The notes under the pieces were generated by a model. It made no database searches. It saw only the letters and a program-made list of their open reading frames with translations, and had not been told where the DNA came from. The translations under genes and the position numbers were made by a program. Source: Acidobacteriota bacterium (GTDB taxonomy: Bacteria > Acidobacteriota > UBA890 > WLXD01). Taken from it: a stretch of DNA of 10,561 nt. Location: contig JACZXM010000053.1 of the NCBI GenBank assembly GCA_022571615.1, forward strand, positions 1 through 10,561. The letters are read 5' to 3'. Positions 5,236-10,561 of this stretch are shown here, piece by piece. Position 1 is the first letter of the stretch; the number at the start of each line of letters is the position of its first letter.

Positions 5236-6148
5236 AGCCGCTGCCGACAGCGCTCATCGCTTCAGGCAACCGTGCCAGGCCCTCACAGCCGGCCAGAAGG
5301 CAAGAGGCAGACGCCGCCAGGCTCGCGTAGCGGGCTGCGGCGGCCCAGCCCTCACCGCGCAGGCGAGCCACCACCATTGCGGCGCCGAACGTATCACCGG
5401 CCCCCGTGGGATCGAGGACGTTCACCGGTGGCGCGATGATCGTCACAGACTCGGGTTGGTCGGCAAGATGCAGAATCGAGCCGCGCGCGGACGCGGTCAC
5501 CACCACCGCCTGCGGGCCGCCATCGAGAATCGTTGCGATTGTCTTGGCGACGAGGCAATCCGTGCCGGCGATCCGCGCCATCTCGAACTTGTTGCACTGC
5601 AACAGGTCCGCCGTCGCGATCCACCGTGCCGCTCGCTGCGGTGACCGCGGCACCCGAGTTCCATCCCCCAGCATGCCCAGGGCCAGACTGTGGAAATCGA
5701 GGTGAATGGGTGCGGTGCACTCAGCCAGCTCCTCGAGCGCTTCCAGCCGCAGATCGAACCCGGTGATGCAATTGACCAGAACGCTGTCCGCCGACCTCGC
5801 TACCGCGAGATCCCGCTCCTGCAGCGGCGGCATCGGCGACGCGAGGCGCTCGCGGCGATCGCCTCCTGACGCTCCATGACGGTAGTCGAGCTCGATCCTG
5901 GTGTTGGGACCGTCGTGGGCCACGAGTCCGTCCAGCTCGACCCCCTCAAGACCGGACCAGTGACGAGTCAGGCGTGCCAGCAGGTCCGTCCCGACACGGC
6001 ACACCGGTAGGATTCGAACCTCCGAGCCTGCCAATGCCGACAGCGCACCGACGCTGTAGGCGATTCCACCCAGGCTACCCCGGGTCGTGCCATCGCGTCC
6101 GGTAATGCGATCGTCGACCACGGTGCCGACGACGGCCACCGTTCTCAC
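5234..6148 (-). CDS. PfkB-family carbohydrate kinase
   Basis: A 304-residue cytoplasmic sugar or nucleoside kinase of the ribokinase/PfkB family, transferring the gamma-phosphate of ATP to a substrate hydroxyl. The N-terminal strand is RTVAVVGTVVDDRIT, followed by the first signature region GGIAYSVGALSALAG (27-41) and PVCRVGTD. LLQCNKFEMARIAG (182-195) is the usual NxxE-type position, VVVTASARGSIL (215-226) follows, and DPTGAGDTFGAAMV (246-259) is the anion-hole/catalytic-base motif with D252. I chose GTG 6148-6146 because it overlaps the symporter stop as GTGA and starts exactly at the first beta strand. The frame stays open far upstream inside the symporter gene, but that extension is a shadow. 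The length is normal for the family. As last gene of the operon it probably phosphorylates the imported sugar. The exact substrate (amino sugar, pentose, fructose type) cannot be read from the motifs. Confidence 0.88.
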   Translation of the reverse strand: MRTVAVVGTVVDDRITGRDGTTRGSLGGIAYSVGALSALAGSEVRILPVCRVGTDLLARLTRHWSGLEGVELDGLVAHDGPNTRIELDYRHGASGGDRRERLASPMPPLQERDLAVARSADSVLVNCITGFDLRLEALEELAECTAPIHLDFHSLALGMLGDGTRVPRSPQRAARWIATADLLQCNKFEMARIAGTDCLVAKTIATILDGGPQAVVVTASARGSILHLADQPESVTIIAPPVNVLDPTGAGDTFGAAMVVARLRGEGWAAAARYASLAASASCLLAGCEGLARLPEAMSAVGSG

Positions 6149-7578
6149 GGCGACGCCGAGACGCGCCTCGCAAGCGCCAAGACCGCCGCCAGCAGGACCG
6201 TCACTGTCGCACCCAGCGGCGTGAGCCACGTCCAGGCCAACGAGTATTGCTGCGCAGCCAGGGCCGCACCTACGCCGGCGGCCAGAGCCAGCGCGACCTG
6301 CCACTGCGGCAACGACCAGCGGGTAAGGCCGACCAGGAAGATCCCCAATATTCCGCTGAAGGTGATCGAGGTGATCGTAAGCCCCGCTTCGAGTACCGAG
6401 CCCCAGCCCTGCGCCAGCCCCGCCACCAGTGCCAGCACCGCTGCCCAAGCCAGCGTGATTCGACGCGACGTACGCAGGGCCCGTTCGGTCGAGGTAGAGC
6501 GACCACGCAGGAGGAAATCCAGCGTCGAGGCCGAGGCCAGCGAGCTCATCGAGGAAGAGAGCGTCGACATCGCCGCCGCGAACACCGAGGCGATGAGCAG
6601 ACCTCCAAGCCCCGCTGGCATCTCGTCGGCAATGAAGCGCGCGAAGACCTGGTCGTTGGAGCTGAAGGGTCGGGCGGGTGGGTTGGACTGATAGAAGGCG
6701 AACAACAACGAGCCGATCACGAGAAACACACCCATTTGCGCCAGTACCAGGATGCCGCTGCCGATCACGGCGCGCTTGGCATCGCGCTCGCTGCGGCAGG
6801 CCAACAGCCGTTGAACGAACATCTGGTCGGTCCCATGGGTTGCCATCGTCAGCACGGCACCACCGACCAGCCCGGCCCAGAACTTGTACGGAGCCGACCA
6901 GTCCCAACCGAAGTCGAACACACGCAGTTTGCCAAGCGGCTCGAGCGTAGCCACCGCTCCCTCCCAACCGCCGGGAATCCGTTGCACCAGCAGCGCCATC
7001 GCCACCAAGGCGCCCCCCATGTAGACCGCCAGTTGCAGCGCATCGTTGAAGATCACGGCGCGCAGCCCACCGCGCACCGTGTACACCAGCGTGATCCCGG
7101 TCACCATCAGGATGGCTGCCGCCAGAGGCATCGGCAACAGCGCCTGCAGCACCAGCGCGGTGGCGAACAGCCGCACTCCGTCGGCGAGACAGCGCGACAC
7201 CAGGAACACCAGCGAGCCGAGCCGCTGCACCATACCCCCGAAGCGCTGGGCGAGCAACTCGTAGGCGGTCTGGACGCTGCCGGAGAAATAGGCCGGTACG
7301 AGCAAGCTCGCCACCGCGAAGCGTCCGACGACGTAGCCCAGCGCCACCTGCAGGAACGTCAGGTCACCGGAATACGCGATCGCCGGAACCCCCACGAACG
7401 TCAGCGTCGAGGTCTCGGTTCCGACGATCGACAGACAGGTGCTCCACCAGGACATTCGCCGTCCGGCGAGAAAATACTCCTCGATCGATCTCTGCCCGCG
7501 GCCCAGTCGCTCCCCCAACCACAGAGTGAGCCCAAAGTAGGCCACCACGACGGTCCAATTCACCAGCGCGGGGCTCAT
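6145..7578 (-). CDS. Sodium:solute symporter (SSS family)
   Basis: A 477-residue inner-membrane Na+-coupled importer of the SSS/SGLT family. Hydrophobic helices run through the whole length, starting with LVNWTVVVAYFGLTLWLG. Family markers are SIEEYFLAGRRMSWW (31-45), the substrate/Na+ helix TETSTLTFVGVPA (54-66), the YTVRGGLRAVIFNDALQ signature (166-182), THGTDQMFVQRLLACRSERDAKRA (247-270) and the serine-rich Na2-site helix AAMSTLSSSMSSLASAST (325-342). The length is at the short end of the family (about 450-600), with a complete core. The start ATG 7578-7576 lies in a 9-bp sequence repeated exactly 200 bp upstream, and the palindromic element separates the gene from the GH3 fusion gene. Only a weak purine site (CAGG) precedes it. 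The stop overlaps the kinase start (GTGA). Context suggests it imports a sugar released by the upstream enzyme; an SSS-type carrier for MurNAc or a related amino sugar would fit, as an inference. Confidence 0.92.
   Translation of the reverse strand: MSPALVNWTVVVAYFGLTLWLGERLGRGQRSIEEYFLAGRRMSWWSTCLSIVGTETSTLTFVGVPAIAYSGDLTFLQVALGYVVGRFAVASLLVPAYFSGSVQTAYELLAQRFGGMVQRLGSLVFLVSRCLADGVRLFATALVLQALLPMPLAAAILMVTGITLVYTVRGGLRAVIFNDALQLAVYMGGALVAMALLVQRIPGGWEGAVATLEPLGKLRVFDFGWDWSAPYKFWAGLVGGAVLTMATHGTDQMFVQRLLACRSERDAKRAVIGSGILVLAQMGVFLVIGSLLFAFYQSNPPARPFSSNDQVFARFIADEMPAGLGGLLIASVFAAAMSTLSSSMSSLASASTLDFLLRGRSTSTERALRTSRRITLAWAAVLALVAGLAQGWGSVLEAGLTITSITFSGILGIFLVGLTRWSLPQWQVALALAAGVGAALAAQQYSLAWTWLTPLGATVTVLLAAVLALARRVSASP
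7570..7578. repeat. 9-bp direct repeat, copy 1 (symporter start codon)
   Basis: GGGGCTCAT here equals 7770-7778. Read on the minus strand it is ATGAGCCCC, the first three codons of the symporter (Met-Ser-Pro). Probable target-site duplication. Confidence 0.7.
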
Positions 7579-7579
7579 T

Positions 7580-7604
7580 TAGCCTGCATTTCTCAACGGG
7601 GTGC
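7580..7604. repeat. Inverted repeat, left arm
   Basis: Begins TAGCCTGC and contains TTTCTCAACGGGGTGC. It is the reverse complement of 7737-7761 except at one base (A at 7588, where the partner arm implies G). Confidence 0.88.
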
Positions 7605-7660
7605 CTAGCGAGGGGGCGGAAGGGGGCGTGGAACCAAGGCGCGCGCGCAAGGGCCCCGCA

Positions 7661-7706
7661 GGCGTACTCTTGCACCAGGTCGAGGAGCCCGACCGAGTGC
7701 AACGCC
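7661..7706. repeat. Central stem-loop of the palindromic element
   Basis: GGCG (7661-7664) pairs with CGCC (7703-7706), TTGCAC (7670-7675) with GTGCAA (7697-7702), and GGTCG (7678-7682) with CGACC (7690-7694). Small internal loops and a 7-nt terminal loop separate the stems. With the outer repeats the whole element can fold into one long branched hairpin. Confidence 0.65.
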
Positions 7707-7736
7707 GTAGACGCGCCGCTTTCCGCCCCCGCAGTA

Positions 7737-7761
7737 GCACCCCGTTGAGAAACGCAGGCTA
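7737..7761. repeat. Inverted repeat, right arm
   Basis: Reverse-complement partner of 7580-7604, with 24 of 25 positions matching. It ends GCAGGCTA. Confidence 0.88.
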
Positions 7762-7769
7762 CGTGAGAG

Positions 7770-7778
7770 GGGGCTCAT
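7770..7778. repeat. 9-bp direct repeat, copy 2 (overlaps GH3 fusion stop)
   Basis: GGGGCTCAT, identical to 7570-7578. On the minus strand its ATGA overlaps the TGA stop (7777-7775) of the GH3 fusion gene, so this copy is a fossil of the original symporter start. Confidence 0.7.
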
Positions 7779-10561
7779 GGTCGCCTGACAGAATCGATGG
7801 CGCGCACCACCGCGATGTGAAAATCGATGCGGGCCTGACGATGCTGGCGATTCTCGCGCGTCGGATGCACTCGGTTGGTCAGCAGCACGACGAACAGGTC
7901 GCGCTGGAAATCGATCCACAGGGAGGTACCGGTGAACCCCGTGTGCCCGATCGCGGCGGCATCGAACATTGACCAATTCCCGCTTCCCTGGGCCGTGTCC
8001 CAGCCTAGCGCCCGGCTGCTGCCCGGCACGATCTGCTGGCGTTTCCGCCAGCCATCGATGGTCGCTCTGTGCAGGATGCGATGGTGATCGTAACTGCCCA
8101 TGTTCAGCAGCATTTGAGCGAAGATGCTCAGATCCCACGCGGTCGAAAACAGACCGGCATGCGAGGAAATCCCGCCGATGACGTAGGTATTCTCGTCGTG
8201 AACTTCCCCCACGAGCATGCGGTCGCGCCACGGGTCGCGTTCGGTCGGCGGTATCCGATCGCGCAGGTTGGCGGGCGGATTCCAGCCGGTGTCGGTCATC
8301 GCCAGCGGCGCGAAGACCTCGCGCTCGGCGTACTCCCAGAACGGCTCGCCCAGCGCCCTGGTTAGGACCTCTCCCAGTAGGATGATCCCGAGATCAGAAT
8401 AGACGTATTGCGTGCCCGCCGGCGTCTCCAGCGAGCTCGCGTAGATCCGATCCATCACCTGCTCTCGCACCGCCGCGCCCGCCGCCGCGGGGTCGTAGTC
8501 GCGAAAGAACTCCACATACGCGGGGAGCCCGGAAGTATGGGTAAGCAGATGCCGTATGGTGACCGCCTCCTTGCCCTCGCCCTCGAACTCCGGCACCAGC
8601 GCCTGTACCGGATAGTCCAGACGCAGGTACCCGCGCTCGACCGCCTGCATCGCTACCGTGGTGGTCGCAATGACCTTGGTGAGCGACGCCAGGTCGAAGA
8701 TCGCGCTGGTCGTCATTGCCCTAGCCTCGGGCTCGTAGCTCATGCGTCCGATGGCGCCGTAGCCGATCAGCTCGTTGCGGTGGCCGACGGCGAATACGGC
8801 TCCCGGAAATGCGCCGCGGTCGACCCAGTCTCGGAGCGCGGCACGGGCGGCCCCCAAGTCAACCGCCGGACGGCTCGGGACGCTCATGCCGGAACCAGTG
8901 CCCAGCTCCGGGACCCGCAGCCCGGCATCGAGGACACTCGTGCTCACCCCGTGGCCGACGCGATACAGACCCGGCACCGAGACCGGTAGCCTACCGCTGA
9001 AGGGAATCTCGCCCACCAGGGCCCGCGCCACCGCCCGCTGTAGCGGCTCGCTCCAGCCGTAGGCTGCAACCACCGTCGAGGCCTCGGGGAACGCTGCCAC
9101 CGCGTAGGGGCTGCCCAGCGCTACAACGATCGTCGGCACCTCCAATTGGGCGATCATCTTGGCGTAGGAGGCCTGCCGAGGGGGCAGCGCGATCTTGCCG
9201 GAGCTCGAGCGGATCCTCACCCGCACCGCCAGGACGACGGTTCGTGCCTTGGCGGCGGCAGCGACGATTTCCGCGGCCTCATCGCCCCGTGTGCGCCCGT
9301 CGATGGAGAACGCGGCCACGTTGGCCAATGGCTCGCGCAGCGCCGCCACCAGGCTTGCCGTCGGCGCCGGCTGGTTGTTGTCCGAGACACCCACCACCAC
9401 CACGCTGTTCCACACTCGAGCGTCAAGCGGAATCAGTGCCGACCGATCGCGCAGCAACGTCACTGCGGCATCCGCCACCTCCTGCGCCCGGTGGGCTTCC
9501 GATGCCAGCGCAAAGCTGCCCGACAGCCCGGCGAGCAATTGCTCGTCCTCGTATCCGGTCAGGCCCAGCTTCACCTTGGCACTGAGCACTCTCCGCACCG
9601 CGTCATCGAGCCTTTGCTCGGAAAGGGCACCGCGCTCGACCGCGCGCACCACCGCGGCGTGTACCGCACGCGGGTTCGGCGACAGCAACACCATGTCCGC
9701 GCCGGCGACCAGCGCCTCCACCGCTGCCTGCCCACTCCACCAGCGGCGCGAGATGCCGCCCATTTCCATGGCGTCGGTGACAACCAGGCCCTCGAACCGC
9801 AATTGCGTCCGCAGCAGGTCGGTGAGCACCGCACGCGACAAGGTCGCCGGCAGCCAGCGATCGGCCGTGAACGCCGGTACCGCCATGTGGGCGGTCATAA
9901 TGCTGGCAACTCCAGCTTCGATCGCGGCGCGAAACGGCGCCAGTTCGACCGCCTGCAGCCGCTCGCTGTCGTGACCGAGCACCGGTAAGGCGATGTGCGA
10001 GTCGACCGCCGTGTCTCCGTGCCCGGGGAAATGCTTGGCGGTGGCGAGCACCCCGCCGCCCTGCGCCCCGCGCACAAACGCCGCCACCATCCCGCCGACG
10101 TGCTGCGGATCTTCGCCGAATGCACGCACGTTGATCACCGGGTTACGCGGGTTGACGTTGACGTCGGCCACCGGGGCGAAGATCCAGTGGATGCCGAGGG
10201 CGCGCGCGTCCCTGGCACTGGCCGCGCCCATCCACTCCGCGGTGCTCGCGTCGTAGGTGGCGCCCACCGCCATGGCGGTCGGAAACGGGACCGCCCCCTC
10301 AATCCGGAACCCGGCCCCCCACTCGAAATCCGCCGCCACCAGCAGCGTCAGATGCCCGGCCTTGGCCGACGCCACCTGCAAGTCGTCGAGCAGCGCGGTC
10401 GCCTCGTAGGCCTGCGACCGGAACAGGATCACGCCGCCCAGGGCCAGATCGTCGACCAGGGCGGTCAGGTCGAGACGGGTCTCAGCATCGGCGGGGTAGT
10501 ACTTGCCGAAAGCCCGCACCATCAGCACCTGCCCGGCACGATCCTGCAGCGACATCGCCGC
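7775..10561 (-). CDS. GH3 beta-N-acetylhexosaminidase fused to beta-lactamase-fold serine hydrolase, 5' end outside window
   Basis: Two enzymes in one chain; 926 residues are counted from ATG 10555. The frame stays open to the edge (Ala-Ala before this Met), and GH3 domains normally begin with SLQDRAGQVLM-like sequence after a signal peptide, so the real start and export signal probably lie beyond the window. Residues 1-330 are the GH3 catalytic barrel: AADFEWGAGFR (74-84), KHFPGHGDTAVDSH (174-187) with the NagZ-type Asp185/His187 acid-base dyad, and VVTDAMEMGGI (258-268) with nucleophile Asp261. Residues 360-535 are the GH3 C-terminal alpha/beta domain. Residues 565-920 are a class C beta-lactamase/penicillin-binding-like domain with SLTK (Ser624, Lys627), YSD (719-721) and HTG (871-873). 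Such fusions are known in Bacteroidota and related groups and suggest attack on muropeptides: the GH3 part removes N-acetylglucosamine and the hydrolase part may cut a peptide or ester. It heads the operon with the symporter and kinase. Confidence 0.92.
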   Translation of the reverse strand, partial: AAMSLQDRAGQVLMVRAFGKYYPADAETRLDLTALVDDLALGGVILFRSQAYEATALLDDLQVASAKAGHLTLLVAADFEWGAGFRIEGAVPFPTAMAVGATYDASTAEWMGAASARDARALGIHWIFAPVADVNVNPRNPVINVRAFGEDPQHVGGMVAAFVRGAQGGGVLATAKHFPGHGDTAVDSHIALPVLGHDSERLQAVELAPFRAAIEAGVASIMTAHMAVPAFTADRWLPATLSRAVLTDLLRTQLRFEGLVVTDAMEMGGISRRWWSGQAAVEALVAGADMVLLSPNPRAVHAAVVRAVERGALSEQRLDDAVRRVLSAKVKLGLTGYEDEQLLAGLSGSFALASEAHRAQEVADAAVTLLRDRSALIPLDARVWNSVVVVGVSDNNQPAPTASLVAALREPLANVAAFSIDGRTRGDEAAEIVAAAAKARTVVLAVRVRIRSSSGKIALPPRQASYAKMIAQLEVPTIVVALGSPYAVAAFPEASTVVAAYGWSEPLQRAVARALVGEIPFSGRLPVSVPGLYRVGHGVSTSVLDAGLRVPELGTGSGMSVPSRPAVDLGAARAALRDWVDRGAFPGAVFAVGHRNELIGYGAIGRMSYEPEARAMTTSAIFDLASLTKVIATTTVAMQAVERGYLRLDYPVQALVPEFEGEGKEAVTIRHLLTHTSGLPAYVEFFRDYDPAAAGAAVREQVMDRIYASSLETPAGTQYVYSDLGIILLGEVLTRALGEPFWEYAEREVFAPLAMTDTGWNPPANLRDRIPPTERDPWRDRMLVGEVHDENTYVIGGISSHAGLFSTAWDLSIFAQMLLNMGSYDHHRILHRATIDGWRKRQQIVPGSSRALGWDTAQGSGNWSMFDAAAIGHTGFTGTSLWIDFQRDLFVVLLTNRVHPTRENRQHRQARIDFHIAVVRAIDSVRRP

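Follow-up and report, generated by a model that had tools for sequence, protein, structure and literature searches.

Overall, after comparing the DNA between two genes of an Acidobacteriota bacterium with its relatives, we reached the following reading, which we hold with considerable confidence: one copy of a putatively IS1380-mobilised MITE family landed in a short gene junction, the 9-bp repeat found there is not the habit of the element, and the fold of the element has been kept. The window (the whole stretch of DNA analysed, 10,561 nucleotides of contig JACZXM010000053.1) holds the following features around this junction.

6145..7578, minus strand: 477-aa ORF, named a symporter by the sequence-only reading; homologue in 62 of 99 genomes, its own included (E 1e-30)
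7570..7578, no strand assigned: downstream copy of the 9-bp direct repeat, holding the symporter start ATG
7580..7604, plus strand: left terminal inverted repeat TAGCCTGCATTTCTCAACGGGGTGC, from comparison of copies
7580..7761, no strand assigned: 182-bp MITE copy, TAG...CTA, its ends set by comparison with other copies
7602..7740, plus strand: conserved hairpin core, scoring 117 bits with covariance model R1, which was built from 24 sequences including that of the window
7605..7778, minus strand: speculative leader ORF of 57 codons, starting at the upstream ATGA and stopping 26 nt before the symporter ATG
7737..7761, minus strand: right terminal inverted repeat, from comparison of copies
7762..7769: extra 8 nt, CTCTCACG on the operon strand, from the MITE end to the 9-bp repeat
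7770..7778, no strand assigned: upstream copy of the 9-bp direct repeat, in which the upstream ORF stops (ATGA)
7775..10555, minus strand: 926-aa ORF from the ORF list, a GH3 fusion by the label of the sequence-only reading

A MITE family in the source genome and its relatives

The sequence between the two ORFs is a mobile mini-element and a member of a MITE family. It is short, has terminal inverted repeats, carries no transposase gene and occurs in many copies at differing flanks, and its ends are common to an autonomous element of the same genome (locus L098), where the agreement reaches less far at the left end than at the right. Nested inverted repeats between the 9-bp copies had been noticed from the letters alone, and we found them at 7574-7604/7737-7767 (31 nt, 90%) and 7605-7628/7714-7737 (24 nt, 79%). 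The minus strand of 7560-7790 has a predicted folding energy of -135.4 kcal/mol (z -7.5), which none of 200 shuffles equalled, and the plus strand folded as DNA gives z -8.1.

Further copies had been anticipated, and a search of the source genome (G000) with the 209-bp sequence recovered ten near full length, the window included. The nine others are 85-92% identical to it, with ends within 3 nt of those at 7580-7761, and at least 60 matching pieces were counted in the best 40 of 55 candidates. Matches at E 1e-3 were obtained in at least 5 of 60 genomes, the source included (up to 13 best candidates per genome), and copies are also present in order-level relatives. Comparison of the ends at 33 loci (the window included, some of them one-ended) and at six loci of genome G042 gave the consensus TAG...CTA with differing flanks and single-base departures at several loci. 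Length is nearly constant: 22 of the 27 measured rows span 180-182 nt, and the remainder are shortened copies of 83, 109 and 118 nt, an interrupted copy of 421 nt and the IS1380 element of 1715 nt. The end pattern was counted 51, 133, 81 and 45 times in G000, G006, G007 and G008, respectively, compared with 0, 4, 1 and 3 for the reversed pattern. A narrow end-pattern scan of contigs returned one locus, in the Acidobacteria MAG JADFNY010000225.1; plasmids gave no match to the window core or to the G042 repeat, and two exact-pattern scans of viral contigs gave none. In the literature searched, no title or abstract opening names this MITE family.

Other repeats were seen along the way. Solo element ends lie at gene ends at L043:1742-1770, L044:1756-1784 and L097:1115-1138; at such loci two ORFs end in a translated element repeat (...ISQRGA*), and at L097 the element-end TAG is, by eye, the stop codon of an arginase-like ORF. 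The source genome also carries a second abundant repeat family, represented by L105 (G000:C291:4562-4857) and at least some 40 further places (best 40 of 237 candidates), which is about 280-300 bp long by paired ends and whose ends, TAGCAGGCCRTGGTGGAAGTGTG, also begin with TAG; the IS1380 element and the MITE copy L025 both abut an end of this family. A third short palindromic repeat, of TAGCAGNGTGCTGAAAAACTCC type, occurs in G007 at L096 after an IS630-type gene, and the MITE copies L045 and L051 abut sequence resembling it.

IS1380 elements as probable partners

The sequence-only reading had advised comparison with insertion-sequence termini. The MITE ends match IS1380-family ends, both in the same genome and across the phylum. 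At L098 of G000, a 474-aa transposase lies between inverted ends of MITE type in an element of 1715 bp with CTAG on both outer sides. This protein matches Pfam PF13701 at 528 bits and NCBIfam NF033539 at 404 bits (cut-off 180). By eye, the left end of the window MITE shares 22 of its first 24 nt with the right end of this IS1380 element, whose left end matches that of the MITE for no more than about 19 nt. Homologues of IS1380 were found in at least 29 of 396 phylum genomes (up to four best candidates per genome). Among 30 IS1380 loci from 29 genomes, the end motif, with up to two mismatches, was present on at least one side at 25 and on both sides at 7, compared with 1 and 0 for the reversed motif. 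The ends common to phylum IS1380 and the MITE are of the type TA(G/A)CCCGnATTTCTCA at CTAG-like sites, and the IS1380 end subtypes TTTCTCA, TTATTCATGAA and TTATGCATAA have similar counterparts among the MITEs. Where a genome holds both, the subterminal bases compared by eye agree in 4 of 7 (G000, G265, G289 and G273), agree partially in G171 and differ in G217 and G233.

Judged by these ends, the MITE is most likely mobilised by IS1380-type transposases in trans. Co-occurrence of the core with IS1380 is weak across the phylum (7 of 29 genomes, the source included, vs 60 of 396; Fisher p 0.13; best eight and four candidates per genome, respectively), and an IS1380 homologue is present in 7 of the 60 core-bearing genomes among the matches listed. 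No PF13701 transposase was found in G006, G007 and G008, which hold many copies and are 75-83% complete, nor in G042.

Other parents were considered and rejected. An IS630-type parent was suggested by the TA ends; the one DDE_3 element found in four genomes, that of G007, has other ends. The other DDE_Tnp_1 elements, L099-L101, have no matching end pair, and L099 has one unpaired site (up to four mismatches). An IS200/RAYT parent was sought as well, and it bears on the idea that the repeat is of REPIN/RAYT type and owes its movement to a tyrosine (Y1) transposase, which would suit a hairpin in many copies with TTCGTAG beside the stem in several genomes. However, Y1_Tnp had no match in G000, G007 and G008, the one in G006 lacks such ends, and such ends are found on IS1380 elements, and we regard this idea as very improbable.

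The gene junction and its 9-bp direct repeats

Exact 9-bp direct repeats with a spacing of 200, GGGGCTCAT at 7570-7578 and 7770-7778, flank the insert as the sequence-only reading had it, and it had also read the junction correctly: the upstream copy contains the stop of the 926-aa ORF as ATGA, and the 477-aa ORF begins in the downstream one. The stop-to-start distance is 196 nt. The prediction that relatives would show an overlapping empty site came true in one genome of the same family, G001, although as GTGA; an ATGA overlap was not seen in other relatives. In G001 (L067), the homologues of both neighbours overlap by the 4-nt GTGA without an insert, and the symporter begins MSAALLNW (GTG start), compared with MSPALVNW in the window. 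The neighbours are 34 nt apart in G002, a member of the same family, and 83 nt apart in G004, without the element in either. The neighbourhood was compared at 21 loci. A GH3-ORF homologue lies upstream of the symporter homologue at L066, L067, L068 and L070; at L068 (G006), a gene that by eye resembles a MurQ-type etherase stands between the two. At L069 (G008), a similar MurQ-like gene precedes the symporter, with the GH3-type ORF outside the examined DNA, and at L081, L083, L084 and L085 a GH3-type match is arranged differently. Insertion is thus supported, as are the empty site and the presence of further copies.

The 9-bp repeat itself is unusual. When left and right 30-nt flanks of different copies were combined, 1 of 702 such mismatched pairs shared at least 9 nt, and of 253 pairs of operon-strand ATGA sites in the window, 2 share 9 nt, the 9-bp repeat pair being one of them; therefore, the likelihood of a chance origin is a few in a thousand, low but not nil. 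Since the repeat is unusual and placed where the G001 overlap predicts, it is probably a real duplication that arose either with the insertion or earlier at this junction. An upstream 17-mer was tried as a decayed element end and rejected as too weak, because 302 of the 7030 window 17-mers, the element included, score as high (p 0.04).

The duplication is not a normal product of the MITE. The ends of the MITE (7580-7761) fall inside the 9-bp repeats, with a single extra nt, 7579, on one side and 8 nt on the other. The sequence-only reading had called this offset of 1 nt and 8 nt from repeat to palindrome odd, and the offset is real; the 9-bp target duplication that the same reading proposed for the element was not supported. 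We take the offset to mean that the 9-bp repeat and the element ends are two different things. Other copies with flanking duplications of their own had been expected; the copies exist, but none of the 26 other true flank pairs (30-nt flanks) has a 9-bp repeat. The longest common word in these flanks, 8 nt, belongs to the IS1380 element, which on its right borders the second repeat family. The 26 rows comprise 25 of MITE type and the IS1380 element L098; among the former, L035 is interrupted, L046:2906 is weak and L027 was taken one base short, and the set excludes the one-ended or contig-cut copies (L029, L033, L034, L036, L037, L040-L042 and one piece of L039), the solo ends L043 and L044 and the G042 repeats. 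The ends TAG...CTA have CTAG as the commonest flanking 4-mer, at 11 of 23 left and 11 of 23 right flanks at order level (the flank-test rows without the window, L027, L046:2906 and L098) and at 8 and 7 of 22 at phylum level. The phylum count drew on the 31 best core matches, of which 25 remained once the window, G042 and four loci from genomes of the order had been set aside; 22 of these 25 have both ends by a loose rule, with lengths of 180-193. The same 4-mer stands on both sides in only 5 of 23 copies at order level and in 6 of 22 at phylum level. In the window copy, TTAG (7579-7582) and CTAC (7759-7762) take the place of CTAG/CTAG, and the element proper is possibly 7583-7758, between these two CTAG-like 4-mers.

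These data bear on three other histories of the junction. The view first taken of this DNA was a classical insertion with a 9-bp target duplication, in which the true element has 191 bp (8 nt, the MITE and 1 nt). The exact repeat does sit where the L067 overlap predicts a single copy, and the rarity of 9-nt agreement between mismatched flanks favours this view too. Nevertheless, the 26 other flank pairs lack such a repeat, the 8 extra nt CTCTCACG stand beside no other MITE copy in the own-genome sequence examined, and IS1380 here sits at CTAG; for IS1247, a member of the IS1380 family, a duplication of 5 bp is published (PMC3281130). We consider a 191-bp element quite improbable. Alternatively, a break may have been filled with a MITE copy and flanking bases of another locus, with the 9-bp ends duplicated during repair. 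Such a capture would explain why this copy lacks CTAG/CTAG, as well as the 8+1 extra nt and the 9-bp repeat, but no donor copy with CTCTCACG at its end was found in the own-genome sequence examined, and we judge it improbable, if somewhat less so. The most serious competitor, to which we give a substantial though clearly minor likelihood, is that an older short gap took the MITE at a TA-containing site and that the 9-bp repeat came about by chance or through a small duplication of unrelated origin. Gaps vary among relatives, as in G002 and G004, removal of the MITE would leave a short ordinary gap, and the count of ATGA pairs includes a second pair besides the repeat. Against it, an exact 9-mer at both stop and start is unlikely by chance, and L067 shows an overlap and no gap. 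With a plain overlap, the older junction would read ATGAGCCCC.

We return to the insertion of a MITE copy of the usual length. An IS1380-type transposase would act in trans on the common ends, and a copy would thereby enter the short junction of two genes that formerly overlapped or nearly did. Insertion would leave a hairpin-bearing gap of 196 nt from stop to start, and the 9-bp duplication would arise there together with the insertion or before it. We infer this order of events. At this site, the insert would part the two genes with a very stable hairpin. No promoter or intrinsic terminator was found in 7450-7900. The 57-codon ORF might keep some reinitiation; such a leader is possible but was rejected, since in 16 of 22 copies the open frame is another one.

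The hairpin core and comparison with known systems

The inner ~139 nt of the MITE form an oriented imperfect hairpin. When 24 copies from five genomes were aligned (24 of the 28 aligned copies, with L027, L030, L055 and L060 left out), the hairpin had 41 pairs, and in 19 both partners had changed. In these building sequences, from which the structure itself was derived, covariation was 0.365 vs 0.184 in shuffles, and paired cells amounted to 94% vs at most 46% when the structure was slid. At E 1e-4, model R1 then matched at least 60 of the 396 phylum genomes, and at 1e-10 at least 35 (E-values rough); 55 of the 60 had not been used for the model. Core copy numbers are lower bounds because at most eight best candidates were scored per genome; within this limit, 336 of 396 genomes gave no core match, including the same-family relatives G001 and G002. 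In 37 matches fitted to R1, with six weak or opposite-strand rows all kept, 37 of 41 pairs changed on both sides and covariation was 0.515 vs 0.181. As an independent check, the best copy of the loci examined was taken from each of 25 non-model genomes and aligned by MAFFT with no structural input, and both sides had changed in 32 of the 40 predicted pairs. Rfam gave three matches in 7400-7950, to two microRNA precursor families, at 25-31 bits compared with gathering thresholds of 137 and 200.

Compensatory change across the phylum suggests that selection probably acts on the fold of the core, whether as RNA or as single-stranded DNA, and we infer both this selection and something that reads the fold. 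Arm-to-arm correction of palindromes occurs, and such conversion can also produce covariation. The core palindrome might thus be kept by conversion rather than by structural selection; however, asymmetric parts are kept too. In the first 31 of the matches, mean column identity was 0.78 for inner unpaired, 0.85 for inner paired and 0.69 for outer-stem columns, and the conserved mismatches speak against mere conversion, which is expected to erase them. We consider conversion as the sole cause unlikely.

The G042 repeat matches only the inner part of the MITE. In that genome, the core sits in an element some 215 bp long whose 14-bp ends are unrelated and self-palindromic (consensus CAAACSGCSGTTTG), and its loci (L063 and L184-L213 among them) have a conserved GCAGGGACGTTGCGATGCGGCGAAGCCGCG after the left end; L127, L128 and L132, from the same genus, have IS1380-type ends. 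We tentatively speculate, while thinking it rather doubtful, that the core is a selected module that travels through the phylum on whatever transposon ends are at hand, mostly IS1380 subtypes and CAAACSGCSGTTTG in G042. If so, it would be a structured DNA or RNA element in its own right. MITE interiors are usually taken as passive filler between transposase-binding ends. A fold kept by compensatory change at near-constant length while the ends follow different IS1380 subtypes or are replaced suggests that the interior does something, in transposition, host tolerance or as RNA, and the core supplies a covariance model and an IS1380 partner for testing this. The junction, for its part, illustrates how two neighbouring genes can be parted by an element of this kind.

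REPINs involve two short REPs and a RAYT. They are dispersed hairpins, as here (PMC3116915), but no RAYT with such ends was found in G000, G006, G007 and G008. IS1380-family insertion sequences (NF033539) have terminal repeats and CTAG-like flanks like the MITE, which, unlike the IS1380 of G000, lacks a transposase and has a different interior. ERIC/IRU elements of enterobacteria are imperfect palindromes of similar size, dispersed in many genera. Their likeness to the present family is one of description; the ends here match IS1380, and the phylum here is Acidobacteriota. The elements are named in PMC10969869. The QMITE2 element of Coxiella, as described in the same review, resembles the family in its terminal inverted repeats of 23-29 bp, core of 113-145 bp and stable predicted hairpin, but has direct repeats of 7-9 bp (PMC10969869). 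MITEs in general, as described there, share with the present family short length, the lack of a transposase, terminal inverted repeats in common with an IS, many copies, a stable hairpin and preference for a short target site (PMC10969869); unlike them, this family is GC-rich, of near-constant length, and has an oriented covarying core across many genomes of the phylum, with one genome in which the same core is joined to unrelated ends.
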